This document shows positions 22,006 through 59,505 of a stretch of 64,000 bases of DNA, one piece after another. Position numbers and translations under genes: made by a program. Each line of letters opens with the position of its first letter. Position 1 is the stretch's first letter. The notes under the pieces were generated by a model. That model did no database searches. It worked only from the letters and a program-made list of their open reading frames with translations, and was not told the origin of the DNA. Origin of the DNA: Mucilaginibacter arboris (GTDB lineage Bacteria > Bacteroidota > Bacteroidia > Sphingobacteriales > Sphingobacteriaceae); assembly GCF_009754915.1 (NCBI RefSeq), contig NZ_WPIK01000013.1, positions 62,001 through 126,000 of the forward strand, in the 5' to 3' direction.

Positions 22006-23130
22006 TTACAAATTTTTGGTGTAGATGGAAGGCTTCAGTTTATTTTGAAAGATCATTTTCGGATCAGCATAAAACTTCTTAAAGTCGGCCTCACTTGTCT
22101 GGCCAGGATAAGGTGCAAAATAATGTTCTTCTTTCCAATTCCTCCAGGTAAGTACGTAAGATGTTTTAAATTGAGAGATAACTGGAAGTAATACATTTGT
22201 CCACCATTGCGGGTCAGGAATACTCTGATAGCCAGCTTCTGTTAATGCCGGAAGTTTATGATGTTCCTGTGCTACTTTTTCTAAAATTTGATAACGGTTG
22301 TCCAGGTCCTGTTTAAATTTCGCTGCATCTTTGGCCATGTAAGCATCAAAGCCAATAATATCAACATAACCGTCTCCGGGATAACGCTCCATATAATCAT
22401 TTTCAGTTGCATAATCAGCAGCAGAATAAGCTATTATCAAATTATGCAAGCGTTTTGTTTCACGTAGGTAATTAATTGTAAAACGCCATAAAGCAATATA
22501 TTCTTCAGGTGTACATTCTTTTTTTCCCCACCAAAACCAGCTGCCTGTATGTTCGTGCAGCGGACGGAATATTACCGGGATCATCTCCCCTTTCGGCCCT
22601 TTTAACTGATTTACAAAAACGGCAAACTTATCTAAGTATTTTACAAAAGCATCATGATGATCTCCGCCAGGAATAATTTGTTTAACAGTTGCAGTTGGCG
22701 TGCTCCAGGCAGTTGCGCCAGTAACCGGATCGTTAAAATGCCAGCTGAATTCATTGATCCCGCCGCGGCTATATACTTCTTTTACGTATGAAATTATGTT
22801 CTTAAAAGGCACGCCGTCCAGGTTTTTCGCACTGTCTAATTCCAGATGGCCTAATTCCCAGCCATATAACCCGGGATAAGAACCGGTAACACTTTTAATA
22901 TCAGAGCGGCCTTTTTCGTAAGCCCAGCCTACACCGTAAGCCAAATCATCCTGATGGCCAAAAATTACATTTGTTTGCGCCAGCTTTTGCATGTTGCTGT
23001 ACAAAATACGCGTTTCTTTGGTAGCATTTTTATCTGCTGGTAAAACATTCTGGGCAAATAGATTAACGGCAGTGCCTGTCATTCCTAAAAACAATAAGCC
23101 TGTGGCTATCACTTTCCATAATTTATTCAT
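22006..23130 (-). CDS. GH26 beta-mannanase
   Basis: A 374-residue secreted enzyme. The signal peptide is MNKLWKVIATGLLFLGMTGT... ending near LFAQ (about 27). The catalytic acid/base Glu is in RPLHEHTGSWFWWG (about 193) and the nucleophile Glu in ALTEAGYQ (about 296), the two hallmark strands of GH26. It should cut beta-1,4-mannan or release mannobiose. ATG 23130 is chosen: the longer frame to 23181 would start at the promoter. It leads the GH26-epimerase operon, divergent from the AraC regulator gene. Confidence 0.9.
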   Translation of the reverse strand: MNKLWKVIATGLLFLGMTGTAVNLFAQNVLPADKNATKETRILYSNMQKLAQTNVIFGHQDDLAYGVGWAYEKGRSDIKSVTGSYPGLYGWELGHLELDSAKNLDGVPFKNIISYVKEVYSRGGINEFSWHFNDPVTGATAWSTPTATVKQIIPGGDHHDAFVKYLDKFAVFVNQLKGPKGEMIPVIFRPLHEHTGSWFWWGKKECTPEEYIALWRFTINYLRETKRLHNLIIAYSAADYATENDYMERYPGDGYVDIIGFDAYMAKDAAKFKQDLDNRYQILEKVAQEHHKLPALTEAGYQSIPDPQWWTNVLLPVISQFKTSYVLTWRNWKEEHYFAPYPGQTSEADFKKFYADPKMIFQNKLKPSIYTKNL

Positions 23131-45869: not shown

Positions 45870-48062
45870 TTATTCTTCTACCGGAACGGGTTTTGTAATC
45901 CCTTTTAACAAGGCACGTACTTCTTTAAAATCATTAACAAAATATTTAGCTTCAGAGCTGTTGTTGCCTACTTTAATGGTGACAGAGTTTTCTGGCATTG
46001 CTTTAAAAGTATCTTCATCCGTATGGTCATCGCCGATAGCCATGGCAAAATCATAATGCTGGTCGTGCAATAAGCCCATAACTGTCTTCCCTTTGTTAAT
46101 TTCTATGTTTTTAACTTCAATTACTTTGTTGCCAGGCAAAATTTGCAGGCCCTGATCGCTTGTAATATACCGAAGGTTGTTAATTAATTCCCCTGCCCTT
46201 AATTCGCCCAAACCAGCGCCTACATTACGGTAATGCCAGGCCAGCGAATACGTTTTTTCTTCGATAAAAGAACCAGGTGTACGGTCTGCAAAAGTTTCAA
46301 GTACCGGTTGGATTGTTTTTTTCCATTGATCATTTAGGGTAGGAAGGCTCTTCCATTCGCCATCCAGTTTTTGCCAGGCGCCATGTTCTGCAACAAGTGC
46401 AATGGGCAGATGGCCAAACCATTTATCCAGTGTATGGTAATCCCGGCCACTAATAATAACTATTTTATTTGCCGGATCTGAACTTAAATCCTGCAAAACC
46501 TGGTACAACTCCTTATCCGGAGAAGCTTTATTAATATCCGCATTAAAGCCAACTAAAGTTCCATCATAATCTAAAAAGAAAATACGCTGATGCGTTTTCG
46601 CATAGATTTTATAAATAGCTTTTTTAGTAACACTGCTTACATAACGCGTGTGCAGAGATTGCTGCTGCTCTTTTACTTCACTTAAACGGTCCATAAAAAT
46701 TTTGACCCAGTGTTTTACGTTAAACTTAGAAACGTTTTTCCGAAGTTTAACCATCCGGCTTTCCTGTTCTTCGGCTGGCATTTCCAGCGCTTGTTTAATG
46801 GCTGCTGCCATCATGCCCATATCATTTGGGTTGACGATAATGGCATCAATCAATTCCCGTGACGAACCTGCCATTTCACTTAAAATTAAAACACCATCAT
46901 TATTGATGCGGCTGGCAACGTATTCTTTACTCACTAAGTTCATTCCATCGCGCATAGGTGTAACCAAGGCAACATCAGCAGTAGCATATAAAGCCGAGAG
47001 GGTTTCGATAGGAAAAGAGCGGTAAAAATACTGCACCGGACTCCAGTTTAAAGTCCGGAAAAGGGAATTGATATTGCCTACACGCTTATCAATTTCATCT
47101 CGAAGATGTTTATATTGAGGAACTGTATCGCGCGAAGGAACAACGATCATGTATAAAACTACTTTTTCCAGGTACTCCGGATTGTTTTTCAACAGTTCTT
47201 CAAAAGCCTGCAAGCGTTGCAAAATGCCTTTACTATAATCTAAACGGTCAACAGACAAAATAGCACGAACACCGTTTAAAGTTGCATTCAAGTTTTCAAT
47301 TTCCTGCTTTACAGTTTCACTTTTAGCAAGCGAGGCATATTTCTGCTCATCAATTCCCATCGGGAAAGCTTCTGCCACAATTAAACGGTCTGGCAGCGAA
47401 ATTACGTTAGAAGATAAATTGACATGCAGCAAACGCGCACAAGCATGTGTAAAATGCTGCACATCATCAAACGTATGAAAACCGATCAAATCCGCGCCCA
47501 GCAAACCTTCCAAAAGTTCGTTGCGCCACGGGATCAGGTGAAAAAGCTCGAAAGAAGGAAACGGTATGTGCAGAAAAAAACCGATCGAAACATCCGGAAG
47601 CTGCTTACGGATTAATGCAGGCACCAGCAGCAACTGGTAATCATGTACCCAAATGGTATCGCCTGGCTTTGCTACGTTCAAAACAGCATCTGCAAATTTT
47701 TGATTTACCTGCTGATAAAACTGCCAGTTAGACTGGCGGTAAGTGCTGTAGGTGGAGGCATAATAATGAAATATTGGCCAAAGTACTTCATTAGAAAAGC
47801 CTTCGTAATATTCGCTGATCTCCTCCTGGCTTAAAAAAACCGGCAGTAAACTTAAACTTGCCAATTGTGCTGTAATTTCTTCTTCTTTATCCGGCGCTAT
47901 TTCTGTTCCCGGCCATCCGATCCATACATTTTCGCCTTCCTGATAAATAGAACCCAGTCCGGTTGCCAGCCCTCCTTCGCTCGGTGATGAATTATACCCG
48001 CCATCTTTTTCCTGTATTTTTACCGGCAGCCTGTTAGAAACAATTATCGTTTTACCCGTCAT
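45870..48062 (-). CDS. Bifunctional trehalose-6-phosphate synthase/phosphatase
   Basis: A 730-residue fusion. The N-terminal GT20 synthase (about 1-465) shows IIVSNRLPVKI, WVHDYQLLLVPALIR, SVDRLDYSKGI and PMRDGMNLVSKEYVA, and joins UDP-glucose to glucose-6-phosphate. The C-terminal HAD phosphatase (about 490-730) shows FLDYDGTLVGF, IISGRDYHTL and AIGDDHTDEDTF, and removes the phosphate to give trehalose. The fusion of OtsA and OtsB is usual in Bacteroidota. AGAGGA stands 3 bases before the ATG at 48062, a clear ribosome binding site. It converges on the FkbM gene. Confidence 0.95.
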   Translation of the reverse strand: MTGKTIIVSNRLPVKIQEKDGGYNSSPSEGGLATGLGSIYQEGENVWIGWPGTEIAPDKEEEITAQLASLSLLPVFLSQEEISEYYEGFSNEVLWPIFHYYASTYSTYRQSNWQFYQQVNQKFADAVLNVAKPGDTIWVHDYQLLLVPALIRKQLPDVSIGFFLHIPFPSFELFHLIPWRNELLEGLLGADLIGFHTFDDVQHFTHACARLLHVNLSSNVISLPDRLIVAEAFPMGIDEQKYASLAKSETVKQEIENLNATLNGVRAILSVDRLDYSKGILQRLQAFEELLKNNPEYLEKVVLYMIVVPSRDTVPQYKHLRDEIDKRVGNINSLFRTLNWSPVQYFYRSFPIETLSALYATADVALVTPMRDGMNLVSKEYVASRINNDGVLILSEMAGSSRELIDAIIVNPNDMGMMAAAIKQALEMPAEEQESRMVKLRKNVSKFNVKHWVKIFMDRLSEVKEQQQSLHTRYVSSVTKKAIYKIYAKTHQRIFFLDYDGTLVGFNADINKASPDKELYQVLQDLSSDPANKIVIISGRDYHTLDKWFGHLPIALVAEHGAWQKLDGEWKSLPTLNDQWKKTIQPVLETFADRTPGSFIEEKTYSLAWHYRNVGAGLGELRAGELINNLRYITSDQGLQILPGNKVIEVKNIEINKGKTVMGLLHDQHYDFAMAIGDDHTDEDTFKAMPENSVTIKVGNNSSEAKYFVNDFKEVRALLKGITKPVPVEE

Positions 48063-48333: not shown

Positions 48334-51012
48334 TTACTTCATTTCTTCCGAAAATTTATTTTCGGAAACATAAGTGGCAGTGCTTTTTCCTAAATCTGTA
48401 ATTAAATTAGCAACCAGTGAACTCCAGCCGGTTTGATGGCTTGCCCCTACGCCCCTGCTGTTATCGCCATGAAAATACTCATAAAACAACACCAAATCGG
48501 CATTTTCGGGCTTTTGGTAAAACTTGTCTTCTGCACCGTTTACAGACCGTTTTCCGGTTTCGTCTTTTGTAAAAATACTGATCAGCCTTTGCGAAAGTTC
48601 ATCTGCTGCTTCTTTTAAATTGATATAGTTACCAGAACCTTTTGGAAACTCCAGTTTAAAATCATCACCATAAAACTCATGGTATTTTCGTAAAGCACGG
48701 ATCAACATATAATTGATAGGCATCCAGATCGGGCCGCGCCAGTTAGAGTTACCACCAAACATATCAGAAGTAGATTCTGCCGGATCGTATTGGATAGTGT
48801 AAGTACTTCCTTCAATATCTACCGAATACGGATTGTCTTTATAAGCTTTGGATAAGGCACGTACACCTCCTTCGGCCAAAAACTCATCTTCATCAAATAC
48901 GCGGTTTAATAAATTAGTGAGTTTTTCCTGATCGACAATTGAAAGCAAAACTTTACCGGTTTTATTATTATCAATAATAGGTAAAAACTGCCTGTTTTTT
49001 TCGCGCGACTGGTTTAACCAGGTAGCACGTTTCCGAAAATCGCGCAATTTTTCAAGGTTGTGATAACTGAAAATAGAAACTGCAAAAATGGAAGTTAAAC
49101 CCACAATAGAACGTACTTTAAGATGATAGGCATGGTTTTTTTGCAAACGGATCGTATCATAAAAAAACTTGTCCTCATCGCTCCATAAACCCATGCCATT
49201 CAAAGCATCGGCAATCAGCACAAAATGTTCGTAAAATTTAACGGCAGAATCTTCAAAGGCATCATCGTGCATGGCAATTTCCAATGCCATATCCATCATG
49301 TTCAATGCGTACATGCCCATCCAACTGGTGCCATCTACCTGCTCCAGTGCCAAAGTGCCGTTCAGTTTACTGTTCCGGTCAAAAACACCAATATTGTCCA
49401 GGCCGAGGAAACCGCCTGCAAAAATATTTTTTCCTTCCACATCGACCCGGTTGGTCCACCAGGTAAAATTAATGATCAGTTTTTGGAAAATCCTTTTTAA
49501 AAACCGGAGGTCGCCTTCGCCTTTTTTCTCCTTTTCTATCCGGTAAACTTCCAGTGCAGCCCAGGCTTGTACCGGCGGGTTAACATCGCTAAAATTCCAT
49601 TCATAAGCCGGAATTTGCCCTTCCGGGTTCATGTACCATTCCCGCATAATCAGGATCAGTTGGTTTTTGGCGAAGGTTGGGTCGATCATTGCCATCGGCA
49701 CACAATGGAAAGCCAAGTCCCAGGCGGCATACCAGGGATATTCCCATTTATCGGGCATAGAAATTATATCCTGGTTTTTCAGGTATTTCCAGGTACTGTT
49801 ACGGCCGTGCAAGCGGTTTTCTACTACGGGCGAAATCCCATCACTGGTGGTTAGCCATCGCTGTGTATCATAATGGTAATACTGTTTGCTCCACAACAAA
49901 CCTGCAAATGCCTGGCGCTGTATATTACGCAAATCAGGGTTTAAGGTATCGGGAAATCTTTTATTGTAGAAATTGTCGGCCTCGGTTTTTCGGGTGGTAA
50001 AAAGAGTATTGAAGCGGTCGTCAAGCGGATTTTTTACACGTCCTTTTGATAAGCGCAACTTGATGGTTTTTGAAGATTTAGCCTTAATCAAAAACTTATA
50101 AACAGGTGAAAACTTAGTACCGGAATTTAGCGCCTGCAGTTCTTCTAAATCTTTACCATTAATCACAGCTTCATGAAAAGCATCTTTTACATACGGAACA
50201 TCGTTTGGTGTACCAAATAATCGTTCTTTATTGGTTTCGTTCTCGGCAAATAAAGTATAATCGGGCTTATCATAATATAAATGGTAAGTTCCTAAAGGTA
50301 CATGCGTTGCCCTTACAGATCCGTCTTCTGCATGTTCAATAACCGGTTTTGGTTTAGATGGTTCGTATTGCCAGCGGTTGTAAAACCACAAGGTTGGCAA
50401 CACTGTTATCGGCGCATCCTCATCTCCCCGGTTTATTATTTCAATACGGATATGAATATCTTCCGAGTTCTTTTTAGCGTATTCTACTACTACATCAAAG
50501 TATTTATCCTCATCAAAAATACCCGTATCCAGCAGTTCATACTCTTGTTCTTCTTTAGAGCGCTCGCCGTTTTTACGGTTTATTTCGTAATACGGAAAAG
50601 CCTGCTGCGGATACTTGTACAAGTATTTCATGTAATAATGTGTTGGCACATTATCTAAGTAGTAATACAATTCTTTTACATCCTCGCCGTGGTTGCCCTG
50701 GTAATTGGTTAAACCATACAAGCGTTCTTTCAGAATTTTGTCTTTACCATTCCATAAGGCCACTGCAAAGCACAGTTGCTGGTAATAATCAGAAATACCG
50801 GCAAGGCCGTCTTCTCCCCATCGGTAAACACGGCTGCGGGCATGGTCATGCGGAAAATAGTTCCAGGCATCACCATTTTGGCTGTAATCCTCCCTAACTG
50901 TTCCCCATTGCCGTTCACTTAAATAAGGGCCCCATTTTTCTAAAGGGACTTCTTTGGCTTCGTTTTCAAGTATGCGCAGGTTTTCTGCATTAGTAGTATT
51001 ATCATCAAACAT
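48334..51012 (-). CDS. GH63-like glucosidase
   Basis: An 892-residue cytoplasmic enzyme without signal peptide. The C-terminal half is an (alpha/alpha)6 barrel with NSNWRGPIWMPINYMLIRAL, DGTSWMGMYALNMM, WEYPWYAAWDLAFHCV and the closing GASHQTGWSSLVANLI, motifs of GH63 family glucosidases. The N-terminal half (ERQWGTVREDYSQNGDAWNYFPHDHARSRVYRWGEDGL) is the beta-rich part of a subgroup common in bacteria. The substrate may be trehalose, glucosylglycerate or an alpha-glucan; its position beside otsAB and glgX points to alpha-glucosides. It may be on one transcript with otsAB. Confidence 0.8.
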   Translation of the reverse strand: MFDDNTTNAENLRILENEAKEVPLEKWGPYLSERQWGTVREDYSQNGDAWNYFPHDHARSRVYRWGEDGLAGISDYYQQLCFAVALWNGKDKILKERLYGLTNYQGNHGEDVKELYYYLDNVPTHYYMKYLYKYPQQAFPYYEINRKNGERSKEEQEYELLDTGIFDEDKYFDVVVEYAKKNSEDIHIRIEIINRGDEDAPITVLPTLWFYNRWQYEPSKPKPVIEHAEDGSVRATHVPLGTYHLYYDKPDYTLFAENETNKERLFGTPNDVPYVKDAFHEAVINGKDLEELQALNSGTKFSPVYKFLIKAKSSKTIKLRLSKGRVKNPLDDRFNTLFTTRKTEADNFYNKRFPDTLNPDLRNIQRQAFAGLLWSKQYYHYDTQRWLTTSDGISPVVENRLHGRNSTWKYLKNQDIISMPDKWEYPWYAAWDLAFHCVPMAMIDPTFAKNQLILIMREWYMNPEGQIPAYEWNFSDVNPPVQAWAALEVYRIEKEKKGEGDLRFLKRIFQKLIINFTWWTNRVDVEGKNIFAGGFLGLDNIGVFDRNSKLNGTLALEQVDGTSWMGMYALNMMDMALEIAMHDDAFEDSAVKFYEHFVLIADALNGMGLWSDEDKFFYDTIRLQKNHAYHLKVRSIVGLTSIFAVSIFSYHNLEKLRDFRKRATWLNQSREKNRQFLPIIDNNKTGKVLLSIVDQEKLTNLLNRVFDEDEFLAEGGVRALSKAYKDNPYSVDIEGSTYTIQYDPAESTSDMFGGNSNWRGPIWMPINYMLIRALRKYHEFYGDDFKLEFPKGSGNYINLKEAADELSQRLISIFTKDETGKRSVNGAEDKFYQKPENADLVLFYEYFHGDNSRGVGASHQTGWSSLVANLITDLGKSTATYVSENKFSEEMK

Positions 51013-51310: not shown

Positions 51311-53434
51311 ATGGATATGAATCTAACTAAATTTCCCGGCAATCCATACCCATTAGGGGCAACCTGGGATGGAAAAGGGGTGAACTTTGCCCTGTTTGCA
51401 AATAATGCTACAAGTGTTGAATTGTGTTTGTTTGACGATGATAATCAGGAAACTAAAATACAATTAAAAGAATGTACACACCATATCTGGCACGTTTATC
51501 TTCCGGGTATTACCCATGGCCAGTTTTACGGTTACCGGGTAGATGGGCCATTTGACCCGGCAAACGGTTTTCGGTATAACCCAAACAAAGTTTTAATAGA
51601 CCCTTATGCCAAATCTATTGCAGGGCCTGTAAAATGGCATGATTCGCTTTTTGGTTATGACCTTAACGATCCGGATAAAGATTTAAGCTTTAACAATTTG
51701 GATAGTGCCCCTTATATTCCAAAAAGTGTTGTTATTGACCCAAATTTTGATTGGGAAGACGATAAGCCGCTTGATATTCCTTATCATAAAAGTATTATTT
51801 ACGAAACACATGTAAAAGGGTTTACGATACTTCAACCTGATATCCCGGAAGAAATAAGAGGTACTTATGCAGCCATGGCGCACCCGGTTACCATTCAATA
51901 TTTAAAAGATCTGGGCATTACTGCGGTAGAATTAATGCCAGTCCATCATTTTATTATAGATGCGCATTTAATTGAAAAAGGCTTATCCAACTATTGGGGC
52001 TATAATACCATTGGTTTTTTTGCCCCTGATGTACGTTATTCAAGCAGCGGCGTCCATGGACAGCAGGTAATCGAGTTTAAAAACATGGTCAAAGAGCTGC
52101 ATAAGGCGGGGCTTGAAGTAATTATAGATGTAGTTTATAACCATACAGCAGAAGGAAATGAATTAGGGCCAACACTTTCTTTTAAAGGTATTGATAATTG
52201 CGCTTATTATCGTTTAGTAGAAGATAACAAACGGTATTACAACGATTATACCGGAACAGGAAACACTTTAAATGCCAATTTGCCAAACGTGCTAAGGTTA
52301 ATAATGGACAGTTTACGATACTGGATCCTGGATATGCACGTAGATGGCTTTAGGTTTGACCTTGCTTCTACCCTTGCCCGTGAACTGCATGATGTTGATA
52401 AATTAAGCTCCTTTTTTGATATTATTTACCAGGACCCTGTTATTTCGCAAGTTAAGCTGATTGCTGAACCCTGGGATATTGGGGAAGGTGGTTACCAGGT
52501 AGGTAATTTCCCTTCTGAATGGGCGGAATGGAACGGTAAATACCGCGATTGTATGCGCGATTACTGGCGCGGTGCTGATAGTATGCTTGGCGAGTTTGCA
52601 GAACGTTTAAGCGGCAGCCCGGATTTATATCAAAATGATGGCAGAAAACCTACAGCAAGCATCAATTTTATTACTGCACATGATGGTTTTACTTTACATG
52701 ATTTAGTAGCTTATGATGAAAAACATAACGAAGCCAATGGAGAGAACAATAATGACGGAGAAAGCCATAACCGTTCCTGGAACTGTGGTGTAGAAGGGCC
52801 AACAGATGACCCTGAAATTATTAATTTAAGGAATCAGCAAAAACGCAATTTTCTTGCTACTATGTTTTTATCTCAAGGTGTACCGATGCTGGTAGCCGGT
52901 GATGAATTTGGCCGTACGCAAGGTGGAAACAACAATGCTTATTGTCAGGATAACGAAATTTCCTGGTTAAACTGGGAAAATGCTGATAAGAGTTTGCAGG
53001 AATTTACGCAGAAACTAATCTCTCTGAGAAAAAATCATCCTATTTTCTGTCGCCGTGGATGGTTCCAGGGGCGTGCCATTAGATCTAAAGTAACTGATAT
53101 TGCTTGGTTTCTACCGGAAGGCATGGAATTATCTGAAGAAAACTGGTCACATGATTTTGCCAAATCGCTCGGTGTTTACCTCAACGGTAGTGAAATCCAC
53201 TCTGTGGATACTGAAGGAAAAAAAATTGTGGATGATAGTTTTTATATCATTTTCAATGCTTACCACGGCCCATTAGATTACATCCTCCCGCCTGTAAAAT
53301 TTGGTAAAACCTGGAACAAAGTATTAGATACCAGTGAAGTTTGTGTATCAGAAGACGGTATTGAGTTTAATGCAGAACAAACCATCAATGTAGCAGGCCG
53401 CTCGGTAGTTATCCTTAAACATAAAAAAGATTAA
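51311..53434 (+). CDS. glgX: Glycogen debranching enzyme (isoamylase type)
   Basis: A 707-residue GH13_11 enzyme. The CBM48 domain comes first (about 5-110; [22 protein letters not shown]), then the barrel with [13 protein letters not shown], the nucleophile Asp in [14 protein letters not shown], the acid Glu in [17 protein letters not shown] and [22 protein letters not shown]. It cuts alpha-1,6 branches of glycogen or limit dextrins. The linear products feed TreY/TreZ and MalQ, encoded directly downstream. The gap to treZ is 6 bp, so the three form one operon. ATG 51317 is an alternative start. Confidence 0.93.
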
Positions 53435-55284: not shown

Positions 55285-58200
55285 ATGATCAATCCTGTTT
55301 CTACCTATAGATTTCAGTTTCATAAAGACTTTAATTTTGATGATTTTGAAAAAATCATTCCTTATCTGCAAAAGCTTGGTATTTCTACCGTTTACGCCTC
55401 GCCTATCTTTCAATCCACTTCCGGAAGTACGCACGGTTACGATGGCTTGAACCCGCATTTGATTAATCCTGAAATTGGTACCGAAGGGCAGTTAAAAAGA
55501 ATCAGTAAAAAACTAAAAGAGTCTGGCATTCAGTGGCTTCAGGATATCGTGCCTAACCACATGGCTTTTGATACTAAAAACCCCTGGCTGATGGACGTAT
55601 TGGAAAAAGGTTTACGTTCTGTTTATGCACCTTTTTTTGATACTTCTTTTACCAGCACTTTTTTTAAGGGACGTGTTATGGTCCCGTTTTTAGGTGCCGC
55701 TTTGGAAGAAGTGATTAAAAACGGCGAACTGAAAGTTGCCTTTAAAGAAGGCCGGTTCGTGCTTAATTATTTTGATACTGGTTATCCGTTAAACCCGCGT
55801 TCTTACGCTTCCGTGCTTCTTTTACCACATAAAAATTCGGATGATACTGTTCGGCAATTGGTTAACCAGTTGGAAGATCTGGAAATGTTGGAGGATCAAA
55901 AATCTTATGCATTACGCTGGAATGAGATTAAATTGCAATTAGCTTCGATCATAAAAGAAGATGAAGCTCGAAAATTAATTGATGGAAATCTGGAGAAGAT
56001 CAACCAAAACCCTGAACTGCTGCTAAACCTTTGCGAAGAGCAACATTACCGTTTGTGTTCTTACGAAGAAACCGACAGCAAAATTAATTTCCGCCGCTTT
56101 TTTACTGTAAACAGTCTCCTTTGCCTGAACATTCAAAATTCGGAAGTTTTTGAAACTTATCATTTAAAAATAAAAGAATGGGTAAAAGAAGGTATTTTCC
56201 AGGGATTGCGGATTGACCATATTGATGGTTTATACAACCCGACCTTATACCTGGAGCAATTGCGGGAAATGACGGGAGACGATACTTATATCATCGTAGA
56301 AAAAATCCTGGAAAAAGGTGAACGATTACCAGAATACTGGCCGATTGAAGGCACCTCCGGTTATGATTTTCTGGCTTTAGTCAACAACCTTTTCACCAAT
56401 AAAAGTGCTGAAAAAGATTTTACCAGATTTTACCAGCAGCTCATCGGAGATAAAAAGGCAGTTCAAAAACAGATCAGTGATAAAAAAGCATTGATTTTGC
56501 GCGATTACATGGGCGGCGAGTTAGAGAACCTGTACCATTATTTCCTGGAATTAAACCTGGCTGAAGAACAGTCACTGGAAAAAGTAGCACCGGAAGACTT
56601 AAAAAATACGATTGGTGCTTTGCTGGTTTATTGTCCGGTTTATCGTTATTATGGAAACCAGTTTCCCTTAGGAGAAACAGAATCAGGGCAACTTAAAGAA
56701 TTATTTAAACTGATCCGCAAAAATAAACCGCAATTAGAAGCAGGCGTAACTTTGCTGGAGGATGTTTTACTGCATCCATCAACCCAGAACAACGAAGATT
56801 ACAACAGTCGCGCCTTGCTTTTTTATCAGCGCTGCATGCAATTTACCGGCCCGTTAATGGCAAAAGGCGTGGAAGATACGCTGATGTACACTTACAACCG
56901 CTTTATCGGCCATAGCGAAGTTGGCGATGCGCCGGATGCTTTTGGCGTTACGGTAGAAGAATTTCATCAGCAAATGCTGGAAAAGCAGGGAAAATGGCCG
57001 CTTTCCATAAATGCCACTTCAACGCATGATACCAAACGAGGCGAAGGTGCGCGTGCCCGTTTAAACGCCCTTTCGGACATGGCGGAAGAATGGTTTGAAA
57101 ACGTAAAAAACTGGCAGCAGCTTAATACTTCACTTAAAACCAACAACCTGCCTGATTCAAACGACGAATATTTTATTTATGAAACACTGATCGCTACGTT
57201 TCCGATGCCGGGAGAAGATGAAGATAATTTCCAGAACCGCTTGCAGGAATACATGGTGAAAGCGTTGCGGGAAGGAAAAAAGAATTCGGATTGGGGCGAA
57301 CAAAATGAGGATTATGAAAAGGCAACTGCTTCTTTTATCGATGGAATTTTAGACCAGACAACTCCTTTTTGGGAAAGTTTCAAAACTTTTTATCAAAAAG
57401 TTGCTGATTTTGGAATTATCAATTCGCTTTCTCAAGTGCTGCTGAAGTTTACTTGCCCGGGTGTTCCGGATGTTTATCAGGGATGCGAGAACTGGGATTT
57501 CAGCATGGTTGACCCGGATAACCGTCGGCCTATTGATTATGAAAAACGTTTGGCTTCTTTAGAGCAAATTACCGGAGAAAAACCTTTAAGCCAGGAACAG
57601 TTATGGGAAACGAGATATAATGCAGACATCAAACTAAAGCTTGTCCATACTCTTTTTACCGAACGAAAATTAGTGCCGGAAATATTTTATCAAGGCGAAT
57701 ATATTCCTTTAACCATTAAAGGAAAGTACAAGGAAAACCTGATTGCTTTTGCCCGACACCTTGACAAGAAATGGTATATTGTAGTCGCACCTTTAGGTTT
57801 GGCAACTATTTGCAAAGAGCAAAAAACGGATATAAAAAACATCGACTGGAAGCATACCAGGATTATCCTGCCAGAAGAAGCACCAGTAAAATGGAAAAAC
57901 TTATTAGATAATTCGAGTGGTTCCGTAGAAGATGATGCTGTTGAAGTGCGTAAAATATTTACTTCGCTGCCTTATGCTTTGCTAAAAATGGAGCAGCAAA
58001 AAACAGAACGGAACGCTGGTATTTTGATGCACATTACTTCGCTGCCTTCTCCTTTTGGTATTGGCGATTTAGGACCGGAAGCAAAAGCTTTTGCCAAATT
58101 TCTGTACAAAAACAAACAGCAGTTCTGGCAACTGCTGCCTTTAAACCCAACCGGGCCGGAGCAGCTTTATTCGCCTTACAGTTCGGTTTCGAGTATGGCT

Positions 58201-59505
58201 GGAAACCCGCTTTTAATTAGTCTGGAATTGTTGATGAAAGATGGTTTGTTATCCGGCAAAGACCTCAAAAAGTTTCAGTTGCCACAAACCGCACAAGTTG
58301 ATTTTAAGGCGGCAAAAGAAGCAAAAGACCAACTTTTTGAACAAGCTTATCAAAAATTTTTGAGTGGTGGATTTGATTCTCTTCAGCAAGAATTTAATTC
58401 TTTTTGTGATGCACAATCTTTTTGGCTGAATGATTTTGCACTTTATTCGGTACTAAAACATCAGCATGAAGATCAAGCCTGGTTTAAGTGGCCAGATCCG
58501 TACAAAAAACGAGATCAAGAAGCGTTGAAGCGGTTCTCCACAGAAAACCAAAACCTGATCCGAAAAGAGAAATGGCTGCAATTTTTGTTTTTAAAGCAAT
58601 GGGAAGCGTTAAAAGATTATTGCCGTAAAAGAAGTATCCGGCTTTTGGGCGATCTGCCTTTTTACATCAGTTATGATTCGGTAGATGTTTGGGCAAACCC
58701 GGAAATATTTTCTATCGATAAAAACAGTAACATGATTGGCGTTGCAGGCGTGCCACCTGATTATTTTAATGCTGATGGACAACTTTGGGGAATGCCTGTT
58801 TTTAACTGGGACGAACTGAAAAAGCAAAATTACAAGTGGTGGGTGCAGCGAATCCGTAAGAATACCGAGCTTTTTGATATGATCCGTTTAGACCATTTCC
58901 GTGCTTTTGCCGGTTATTGGGAAGTTCCGGCAACAGAAAAAACAGCTAAAAATGGTGAATGGAAAACCGGGCCGGGAAGCGATTTATTTAAAGTATTACA
59001 GCAGGAATTAGGCGAATTGCCATTTGTAGCGGAAGATTTGGGCGAAATAACGGATGATGTTTACAAGCTAAGAGATGAATACCAGTTTCCGGGAATGAAA
59101 GTACTTCAGTTCGCTTTTGGTGATGATATGCCAGGCTCGCCGCACATCCCTCATAATTACACGCCTAATTATTTTGCTTACACCGGAACGCACGATAATA
59201 ACACCAGCGTAGGTTGGTTTACTAAAGATGCCGACTCTGAAACTGTTAAACGTTTGGAGCAATATGCAAATACTGCTGTTTCCAGGTTAAATGTTAATTG
59301 GGTTTTAATCCGCCTTGCTTATGCCTCAGTTGCCAAAACTTTAATTGTACCTATGCAGGATATTTTAGGATTAGGTGAAAAAACCCGGATGAATATGCCG
59401 GCCTCAACAGAAAACAATTGGGGATGGCGTATGCAACCGGGAGAACTTACACAAGCCATGCAAAAGAAACTGCGCAAGTTAGTTTTAATTTATAACCGGG
59501 CTTAA
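55285..59505 (+). CDS. Fusion of malto-oligosyltrehalose synthase (TreY) and 4-alpha-glucanotransferase (MalQ)
   Basis: A 1406-residue protein with no stop or frameshift at the join. Residues about 1-880 are TreY (GH13_26): STYRFQFHKDFNFDD, nucleophile Asp in GLRIDHIDG (about 309), acid Glu in YIIVEKILEKGERLP (about 338) and THDTKRGEGARARL (about 577). From about 908 it is MalQ (GH77): GILMHITSLPSPFGIGDLGP, nucleophile in IRLDHFRAFAGYWEVP (about 1201), VAEDLGEI and TGTHDNNTS. MalQ rebuilds short maltodextrins into chains TreY can turn end-over to trehalose, so the fusion links both steps. It overlaps nothing, and treZ and glgX precede it in the operon. Confidence 0.93.
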   Translation: MINPVSTYRFQFHKDFNFDDFEKIIPYLQKLGISTVYASPIFQSTSGSTHGYDGLNPHLINPEIGTEGQLKRISKKLKESGIQWLQDIVPNHMAFDTKNPWLMDVLEKGLRSVYAPFFDTSFTSTFFKGRVMVPFLGAALEEVIKNGELKVAFKEGRFVLNYFDTGYPLNPRSYASVLLLPHKNSDDTVRQLVNQLEDLEMLEDQKSYALRWNEIKLQLASIIKEDEARKLIDGNLEKINQNPELLLNLCEEQHYRLCSYEETDSKINFRRFFTVNSLLCLNIQNSEVFETYHLKIKEWVKEGIFQGLRIDHIDGLYNPTLYLEQLREMTGDDTYIIVEKILEKGERLPEYWPIEGTSGYDFLALVNNLFTNKSAEKDFTRFYQQLIGDKKAVQKQISDKKALILRDYMGGELENLYHYFLELNLAEEQSLEKVAPEDLKNTIGALLVYCPVYRYYGNQFPLGETESGQLKELFKLIRKNKPQLEAGVTLLEDVLLHPSTQNNEDYNSRALLFYQRCMQFTGPLMAKGVEDTLMYTYNRFIGHSEVGDAPDAFGVTVEEFHQQMLEKQGKWPLSINATSTHDTKRGEGARARLNALSDMAEEWFENVKNWQQLNTSLKTNNLPDSNDEYFIYETLIATFPMPGEDEDNFQNRLQEYMVKALREGKKNSDWGEQNEDYEKATASFIDGILDQTTPFWESFKTFYQKVADFGIINSLSQVLLKFTCPGVPDVYQGCENWDFSMVDPDNRRPIDYEKRLASLEQITGEKPLSQEQLWETRYNADIKLKLVHTLFTERKLVPEIFYQGEYIPLTIKGKYKENLIAFARHLDKKWYIVVAPLGLATICKEQKTDIKNIDWKHTRIILPEEAPVKWKNLLDNSSGSVEDDAVEVRKIFTSLPYALLKMEQQKTERNAGILMHITSLPSPFGIGDLGPEAKAFAKFLYKNKQQFWQLLPLNPTGPEQLYSPYSSVSSMAGNPLLISLELLMKDGLLSGKDLKKFQLPQTAQVDFKAAKEAKDQLFEQAYQKFLSGGFDSLQQEFNSFCDAQSFWLNDFALYSVLKHQHEDQAWFKWPDPYKKRDQEALKRFSTENQNLIRKEKWLQFLFLKQWEALKDYCRKRSIRLLGDLPFYISYDSVDVWANPEIFSIDKNSNMIGVAGVPPDYFNADGQLWGMPVFNWDELKKQNYKWWVQRIRKNTELFDMIRLDHFRAFAGYWEVPATEKTAKNGEWKTGPGSDLFKVLQQELGELPFVAEDLGEITDDVYKLRDEYQFPGMKVLQFAFGDDMPGSPHIPHNYTPNYFAYTGTHDNNTSVGWFTKDADSETVKRLEQYANTAVSRLNVNWVLIRLAYASVAKTLIVPMQDILGLGEKTRMNMPASTENNWGWRMQPGELTQAMQKKLRKLVLIYNRA

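Follow-up and report, generated by a model that had tools for sequence, protein, structure and literature searches.

The last gene of a glgX-treZ operon in the window (the whole 64,000-nucleotide stretch of DNA analyzed here) encodes malto-oligosyltrehalose synthase (TreY) and 4-alpha-glucanotransferase (MalQ) in a single open reading frame, and this fusion is real and common to many relatives. With TreY at its N-terminus and MalQ at its C-terminus, the protein is probably a bifunctional enzyme, a reading to which we give a probability of about 0.6, its two activities being predicted from sequence.

Domains and catalytic residues

The frame (55285–59505, +) begins with ATG, contains no internal stops and predicts a protein of 1406 residues, the features of which are collected in Table 1. 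Both families are matched over nearly the whole of their profiles. In the NCBIfam search, the TreY half aligned with positions 1–837 of the 838 in TIGR02401 (840.8 bits, cut-off 498.65), and the MalQ half with positions 3–495 of the 496 in NF011080, the compact MalQ subfamily (660.4 bits, cut-off 477). Pfam GH77 was matched by residues 915–1388 (positions 1–464 of 465, 571 bits), and the Pfam search found no CBM20, MalQ_N or any other extra domain in the MalQ half. These full-length matches in one frame bear out the preliminary description, made from the sequence alone, of TreY and MalQ joined in one 1406-residue enzyme, with a MalQ of the compact bacterial type and not the form bearing CBM20.

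Table 1. Position of the fusion gene, its domains and catalytic residues, the upstream operon genes and an example of the TIGR02094-like proteins (window coordinates unless a locus is given)
Feature	Coordinates	Strand	Evidence
treY::malQ fusion gene	55285..59505	+	Single open frame; TIGR02401 and NF011080 matches; full-length fused orthologs
TreY domain (malto-oligosyltrehalose synthase, GH13), residues 4–901	55294..57987	+	TIGR02401, 840.8 bits
Linker, residues 902–906, with in-frame ATG at 57988	57988..58002	+	End of profile match; linker alignment
MalQ domain (4-alpha-glucanotransferase, GH77, compact type), residues 907–1405	58003..59499	+	NF011080; Pfam GH77
TreY nucleophile D311, motif GLRIDHIDGL	56215..56217	+	Kept in 45/45 fused and 28/28 unfused TreY
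TreY general acid/base E339, motif IIVEKIL	56299..56301	+	Kept in 73/73 TreY
TreY third carboxylate D582, motif TSTHDTKR	57028..57030	+	Kept in 73/73 TreY
MalQ nucleophile D1203, motif MIRLDHFRAF	58891..58893	+	Kept in 43/43 fused MalQ
MalQ acid/base E1250, motif FVAEDLG	59032..59034	+	Kept in 43/43 fused MalQ
MalQ third carboxylate D1304, motif TGTHDNNT	59194..59196	+	Kept in 42/43 fused MalQ (remaining one ends at contig edge)
treZ, malto-oligosyltrehalose trehalohydrolase, 613 aa	53441..55282	+	TIGR02402, 707 bits (cut-off 538.8)
glgX, glycogen debranching enzyme, 707 aa	51311..53434	+	TIGR02100, 1050.8 bits (cut-off 640.9)
TIGR02094-like "alpha-glucan phosphorylase", example	G000:C2 (L198 315-1967)	-	Others at L204-L207, L210-L214

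The TreY half can be aligned with the solved TreY (MTSase) chains 5zcr, 6lcu and 1iv8, and the MalQ half aligns from end to end with solved amylomaltases, 1tz7 among them, the catalytic motifs matching up in both cases. All six residues that we take to be catalytic from established knowledge of GH13 and GH77 (D311, E339 and D582 in TreY; D1203, E1250 and D1304 in MalQ) are present, as had been claimed, and none of them varies among the 45 fused TreY or among those fused MalQ that extend far enough to include them. In comparison with a congener, dN is 0.14 and 0.17 for the two halves, with a dS of about 1.6 that is near saturation, estimates that indicate a similar degree of purifying selection on the two.

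The two profile matches are separated by a linker of only about five residues (902–906), the protein reading LPYALLK-MEQQKTE-RNAGILMHI across the join. It had been stated that no start, stop or frameshift lies here; the frame is indeed uninterrupted, but an in-frame ATG occurs at residue 902 (nucleotide 57988). The two halves might act as separate polypeptides, produced through internal initiation at this ATG or through cleavage of the linker, and in line with this the codon stands where a free MalQ would begin and is common to a congener. A methionine is found in the linker of just 7 of the 38 fused relatives aligned, however, which means that internal initiation is not conserved, and we regard separate polypeptides as improbable.

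Distribution of the fusion

The survey of the family that the preliminary description had proposed as a check was run on 201 Sphingobacteriaceae genomes, 79 of which possess TreY. By our count, the one-frame fusion is present in 77 of these 79, although this number includes at least one case (G020) in which the end of MalQ has slipped into another frame. The two exceptions are G050, where a frameshift in an A-run breaks the gene in two, and G084, a contig fragment. A probe for the junction matched 93 genomes in the order-wide sample, and 91 of them carry a fused frame of >1280 aa, with G050 and G600 as the exceptions. Two congeners share the same join, at 75–76% identity. Outside the family, the fusion was found in Spirosoma, Dyadobacter, Adhaeribacter, Rufibacter, Dawidia, a Flavisolibacter MAG (Chitinophagaceae) and a Bacteroidales MAG, and fusions were rare outside Sphingobacteriaceae in the class-wide sample (295 genomes). 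Beyond Bacteroidota, the sampling took in plasmids and the top 80 loci from a single scan.

The preliminary description had allowed that orthologs might prove to be two genes and the join an assembly artefact. No support for an artefact of assembly or sequencing was found, and the A-run frameshift in G050 indicates only that frame errors exist in such data. Two congeners and dozens of other genomes, some of them single-contig, have the same join, and the Spirosoma RefSeq protein WP_232563132.1 comes from a complete plasmid. An assembly artefact is thus ruled out by independent genomes, and the chance that two genes were joined in error is practically nil.

Probable origin and later losses

In a TreY tree built with a quick method, all 45 fused proteins fall within one clade of 52 rows (SH-aLRT 98), the neighbors of which include Pontibacter, Salinimicrobium, G713 and Cesiribacteraceae, where treY and malQ are separate genes in the same order. 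Such neighboring, separate genes in this order are also present in Desulfobacter, a Desulfobacterales MAG, Omnitrophota MAGs and Segetibacter. In several of the pairs the treY stop overlaps or almost touches the malQ start (e.g., ...cATGA...), and the point of overlap corresponds to the position of the linker in the fused proteins. As all fused TreY lie in one clade near same-order, often overlapping treY-malQ pairs, the most likely origin of the fusion is a single event within Bacteroidota in which the stop between the adjoining genes was lost. Several independent fusions within Bacteroidota are unsupported, given this single clade. The MalQ tree is weakly resolved and is compatible with the picture from TreY.

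Seven rows of the clade are without an attached, intact MalQ, and these are best read as later MalQ loss or splitting. On account of these rows, the tree requires six label changes; it is unrooted, and one gain followed by several losses is an interpretation of these six changes. In G600, TreY is intact and the first ~20 residues and C-terminal tail of MalQ remain, the MalQ body having been deleted internally (L093 6760-7000); the C-terminal remnant is detached, and there is no other GH77 in the genome. The A-run frameshift in G050 lies within the MalQ half and leaves 933 and 375 residues (L094 9700-9760), and may be a real mutation or a sequencing error. Segetibacter, which falls in the fused clade, has treY and malQ as two close genes, and other unfused members of the clade end at the linker.

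Operon and neighborhood

The fusion gene is the last in a glgX-treZ-[treY::malQ] operon, with gaps of 6 bp between glgX and treZ and 2 bp between treZ and the fusion gene. Coordinates and profile matches thus agree with the earlier account of treZ 2 bp upstream and glgX before it. The same order was found again in most fused relatives, across genera, whereas Sphingobacterium has the order [treY::malQ]-glgX-treZ. When the region was scanned for promoters and terminators, the results were at about chance level, and a defence-family scan of one neighboring gene returned no match.

Upstream of the operon, and divergent to it, lies an OtsA-OtsB fusion (45870–48062, −), representing a second trehalose route. 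A GH63-like protein of 892 aa (48334–51012, −) is likewise encoded divergently to the operon, and its gene is also present in a congener (L096). Positions 22006–44190 of the window hold a probable mannan-use cluster, with two GH26, GH5-like, GH3, SASA-family esterase, SusC/SusD-like and transporter genes.

Glycogen metabolism and proposed function

GlgA and GlgB are encoded in the genome from which the window was taken, and no canonical GT35 phosphorylase was found there. The fusion is the sole GH77 above the curated cut-off in this genome, and likewise in each of the eight intact Sphingobacteriaceae genomes that were tested, while a second GH77 is present in G232 and G443, which lie outside the family. 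A GT35 protein of ~850 residues with the motif GTSGMK was found in 2 of the 201 family genomes (G015 and G062), and the others have at most a TIGR02094-like protein of ~550 residues. In all ten of these shorter proteins examined, GTSGM(T/S) replaces the lysine motif (for example GTSGMTAAMNG), the lysine of which we take to be the PLP-binding residue of GT35. The shorter protein may not be a phosphorylase, and canonical phosphorolysis seems to be absent in the family. The scarcity of canonical phosphorylase is a family-wide property and need not go together with the fusion.

With the fusion as sole GH77 and almost no canonical glycogen phosphorylase in the family, the operon is a plausible main route from glycogen to trehalose, and GlgX, TreZ, TreY and MalQ could plausibly constitute the main exit from glycogen. 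The compact route envisaged in the preliminary description is credible on these grounds, together with the presence of glgX and treZ in the operon and of GlgA and GlgB in the genome; that the fusion makes the two steps a functional unit is something we infer. In such a route, debranching by GlgX and trehalose release by TreZ would, with the fusion, take glycogen chains to trehalose. The TreY half would convert the reducing-end linkage of a malto-oligosaccharide to a trehalose end, and the MalQ half would disproportionate short malto-oligosaccharides, recycling short products, which are poorly used by TreY and TreZ, into longer chains and glucose. The recycling role is presumed, as would be any benefit of the covalent link. 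A further extension, in which the operon is the principal means of glycogen breakdown, yielding trehalose and glucose and not glucose-1-phosphate, with short malto-oligosaccharides passing between the two active sites of the fusion, is speculative and we consider it unlikely.

In industrial work, a disproportionating CGTase added to TreY and TreZ gave a higher trehalose yield from short oligosaccharides (PMC11611815). In P. aeruginosa, which has separate treZ-malQ-treY genes, trehalose was 0.32 after deletion of malQ vs 0.13 in the wild type (PMC8084333), and this higher trehalose without malQ counts against a simple helper role for MalQ. Coupling of the two activities is also opposed by G600, with its intact TreY but neither a MalQ body nor another GH77, and by the other MalQ-less TreY inside the fused clade. 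The two activities may instead be independent and merely share a chain, MalQ serving general maltodextrin metabolism and TreY serving trehalose, with the fusion a neutral loss of a stop. In favor of this, adjoining treY-malQ pairs in the same order are the likely precursors, P. aeruginosa does not need MalQ for trehalose (PMC8084333), and the tree points to several later losses or re-splits; the fusion, as the sole GH77, also has to meet whatever demand there is for general maltodextrin metabolism. Against this, nearly every member of the Sphingobacteriaceae with TreY has kept the fusion, and in Alphaproteobacteria MalQ was joined separately to TreY or TreZ, in other domain orders. We hold neutral fusion of independent activities to be a serious but minority possibility.

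The attachment of MalQ to trehalose-pathway enzymes at least two more times (in Chelatococcus and Azospirillum) suggests that these steps belong together. The RefSeq label "treY", seen for the Spirosoma ortholog, hides the MalQ half, with the result that models based on annotation would treat such genomes as having no 4-alpha-glucanotransferase. As fused, split and MalQ-deleted forms all occur in natural relatives, what the fusion contributes can be tested directly, with a view to one-pot trehalose production as well.

Comparison with known systems

No description of a TreY-MalQ fusion in this order was found in the open-access papers searched. The full-length ortholog in Spirosoma oryzicola (WP_232563132.1) has 55% identity and the same domain order, but is encoded on a 330 kb plasmid, where the 24 kb of annotated surroundings contain neither glgX nor treZ, and is named treY only. 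Separate treY-malQ pairs (Pontibacter, Salinimicrobium, Cesiribacteraceae, Desulfobacter and Omnitrophota MAGs) have the same order and the same compact MalQ, but as two polypeptides. The glgA-treZ-malQ-treY-glgX cluster of P. aeruginosa, which has been studied biochemically, brings the same activities together in one cluster, but its genes are separate, malQ precedes treY, and the GlgE pathway and GlgP are present (PMC8084333).

Fusions of MalQ with other partners are also known. In the PRK14510 GlgX-MalQ proteins, MalQ is likewise joined to a glycogen-breakdown enzyme, but the partner is the debranching enzyme; the window protein does not belong to this type, as its glgX is a separate gene (51311–53434) and the MalQ part alone matches (516 bits vs 1322). 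Azospirillum plasmids carry an 1868-residue maltokinase-TreZ-MalQ fusion beside treY (L116 3999-9605; L110 1999-7605), annotated just as treZ in one record.

The closest catalogued arrangement is the NF011077/PRK14507 MalQ-TreY type, represented by a 1589-aa protein from plasmid pCO-6 of Chelatococcus sp. CO-6 (WP_053194246.1), in which TreY and 4-alpha-glucanotransferase also form one chain and the gene adjoins glgX and treZ, lying behind both, much as in the window. In this type, however, MalQ comes first and is larger, with a MalQ_N domain. The Chelatococcus protein itself scored 1931 against NF011077, just below the cut-off of 2148, whereas the window protein scored 928.7, its TreY part aligning to model positions 743–1692, and both this score and the reversed domain order rule out membership. 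The TreY-MalQ protein is a separate variant of a coupling between MalQ and TreY that was already catalogued, in the reverse order, as PRK14507.
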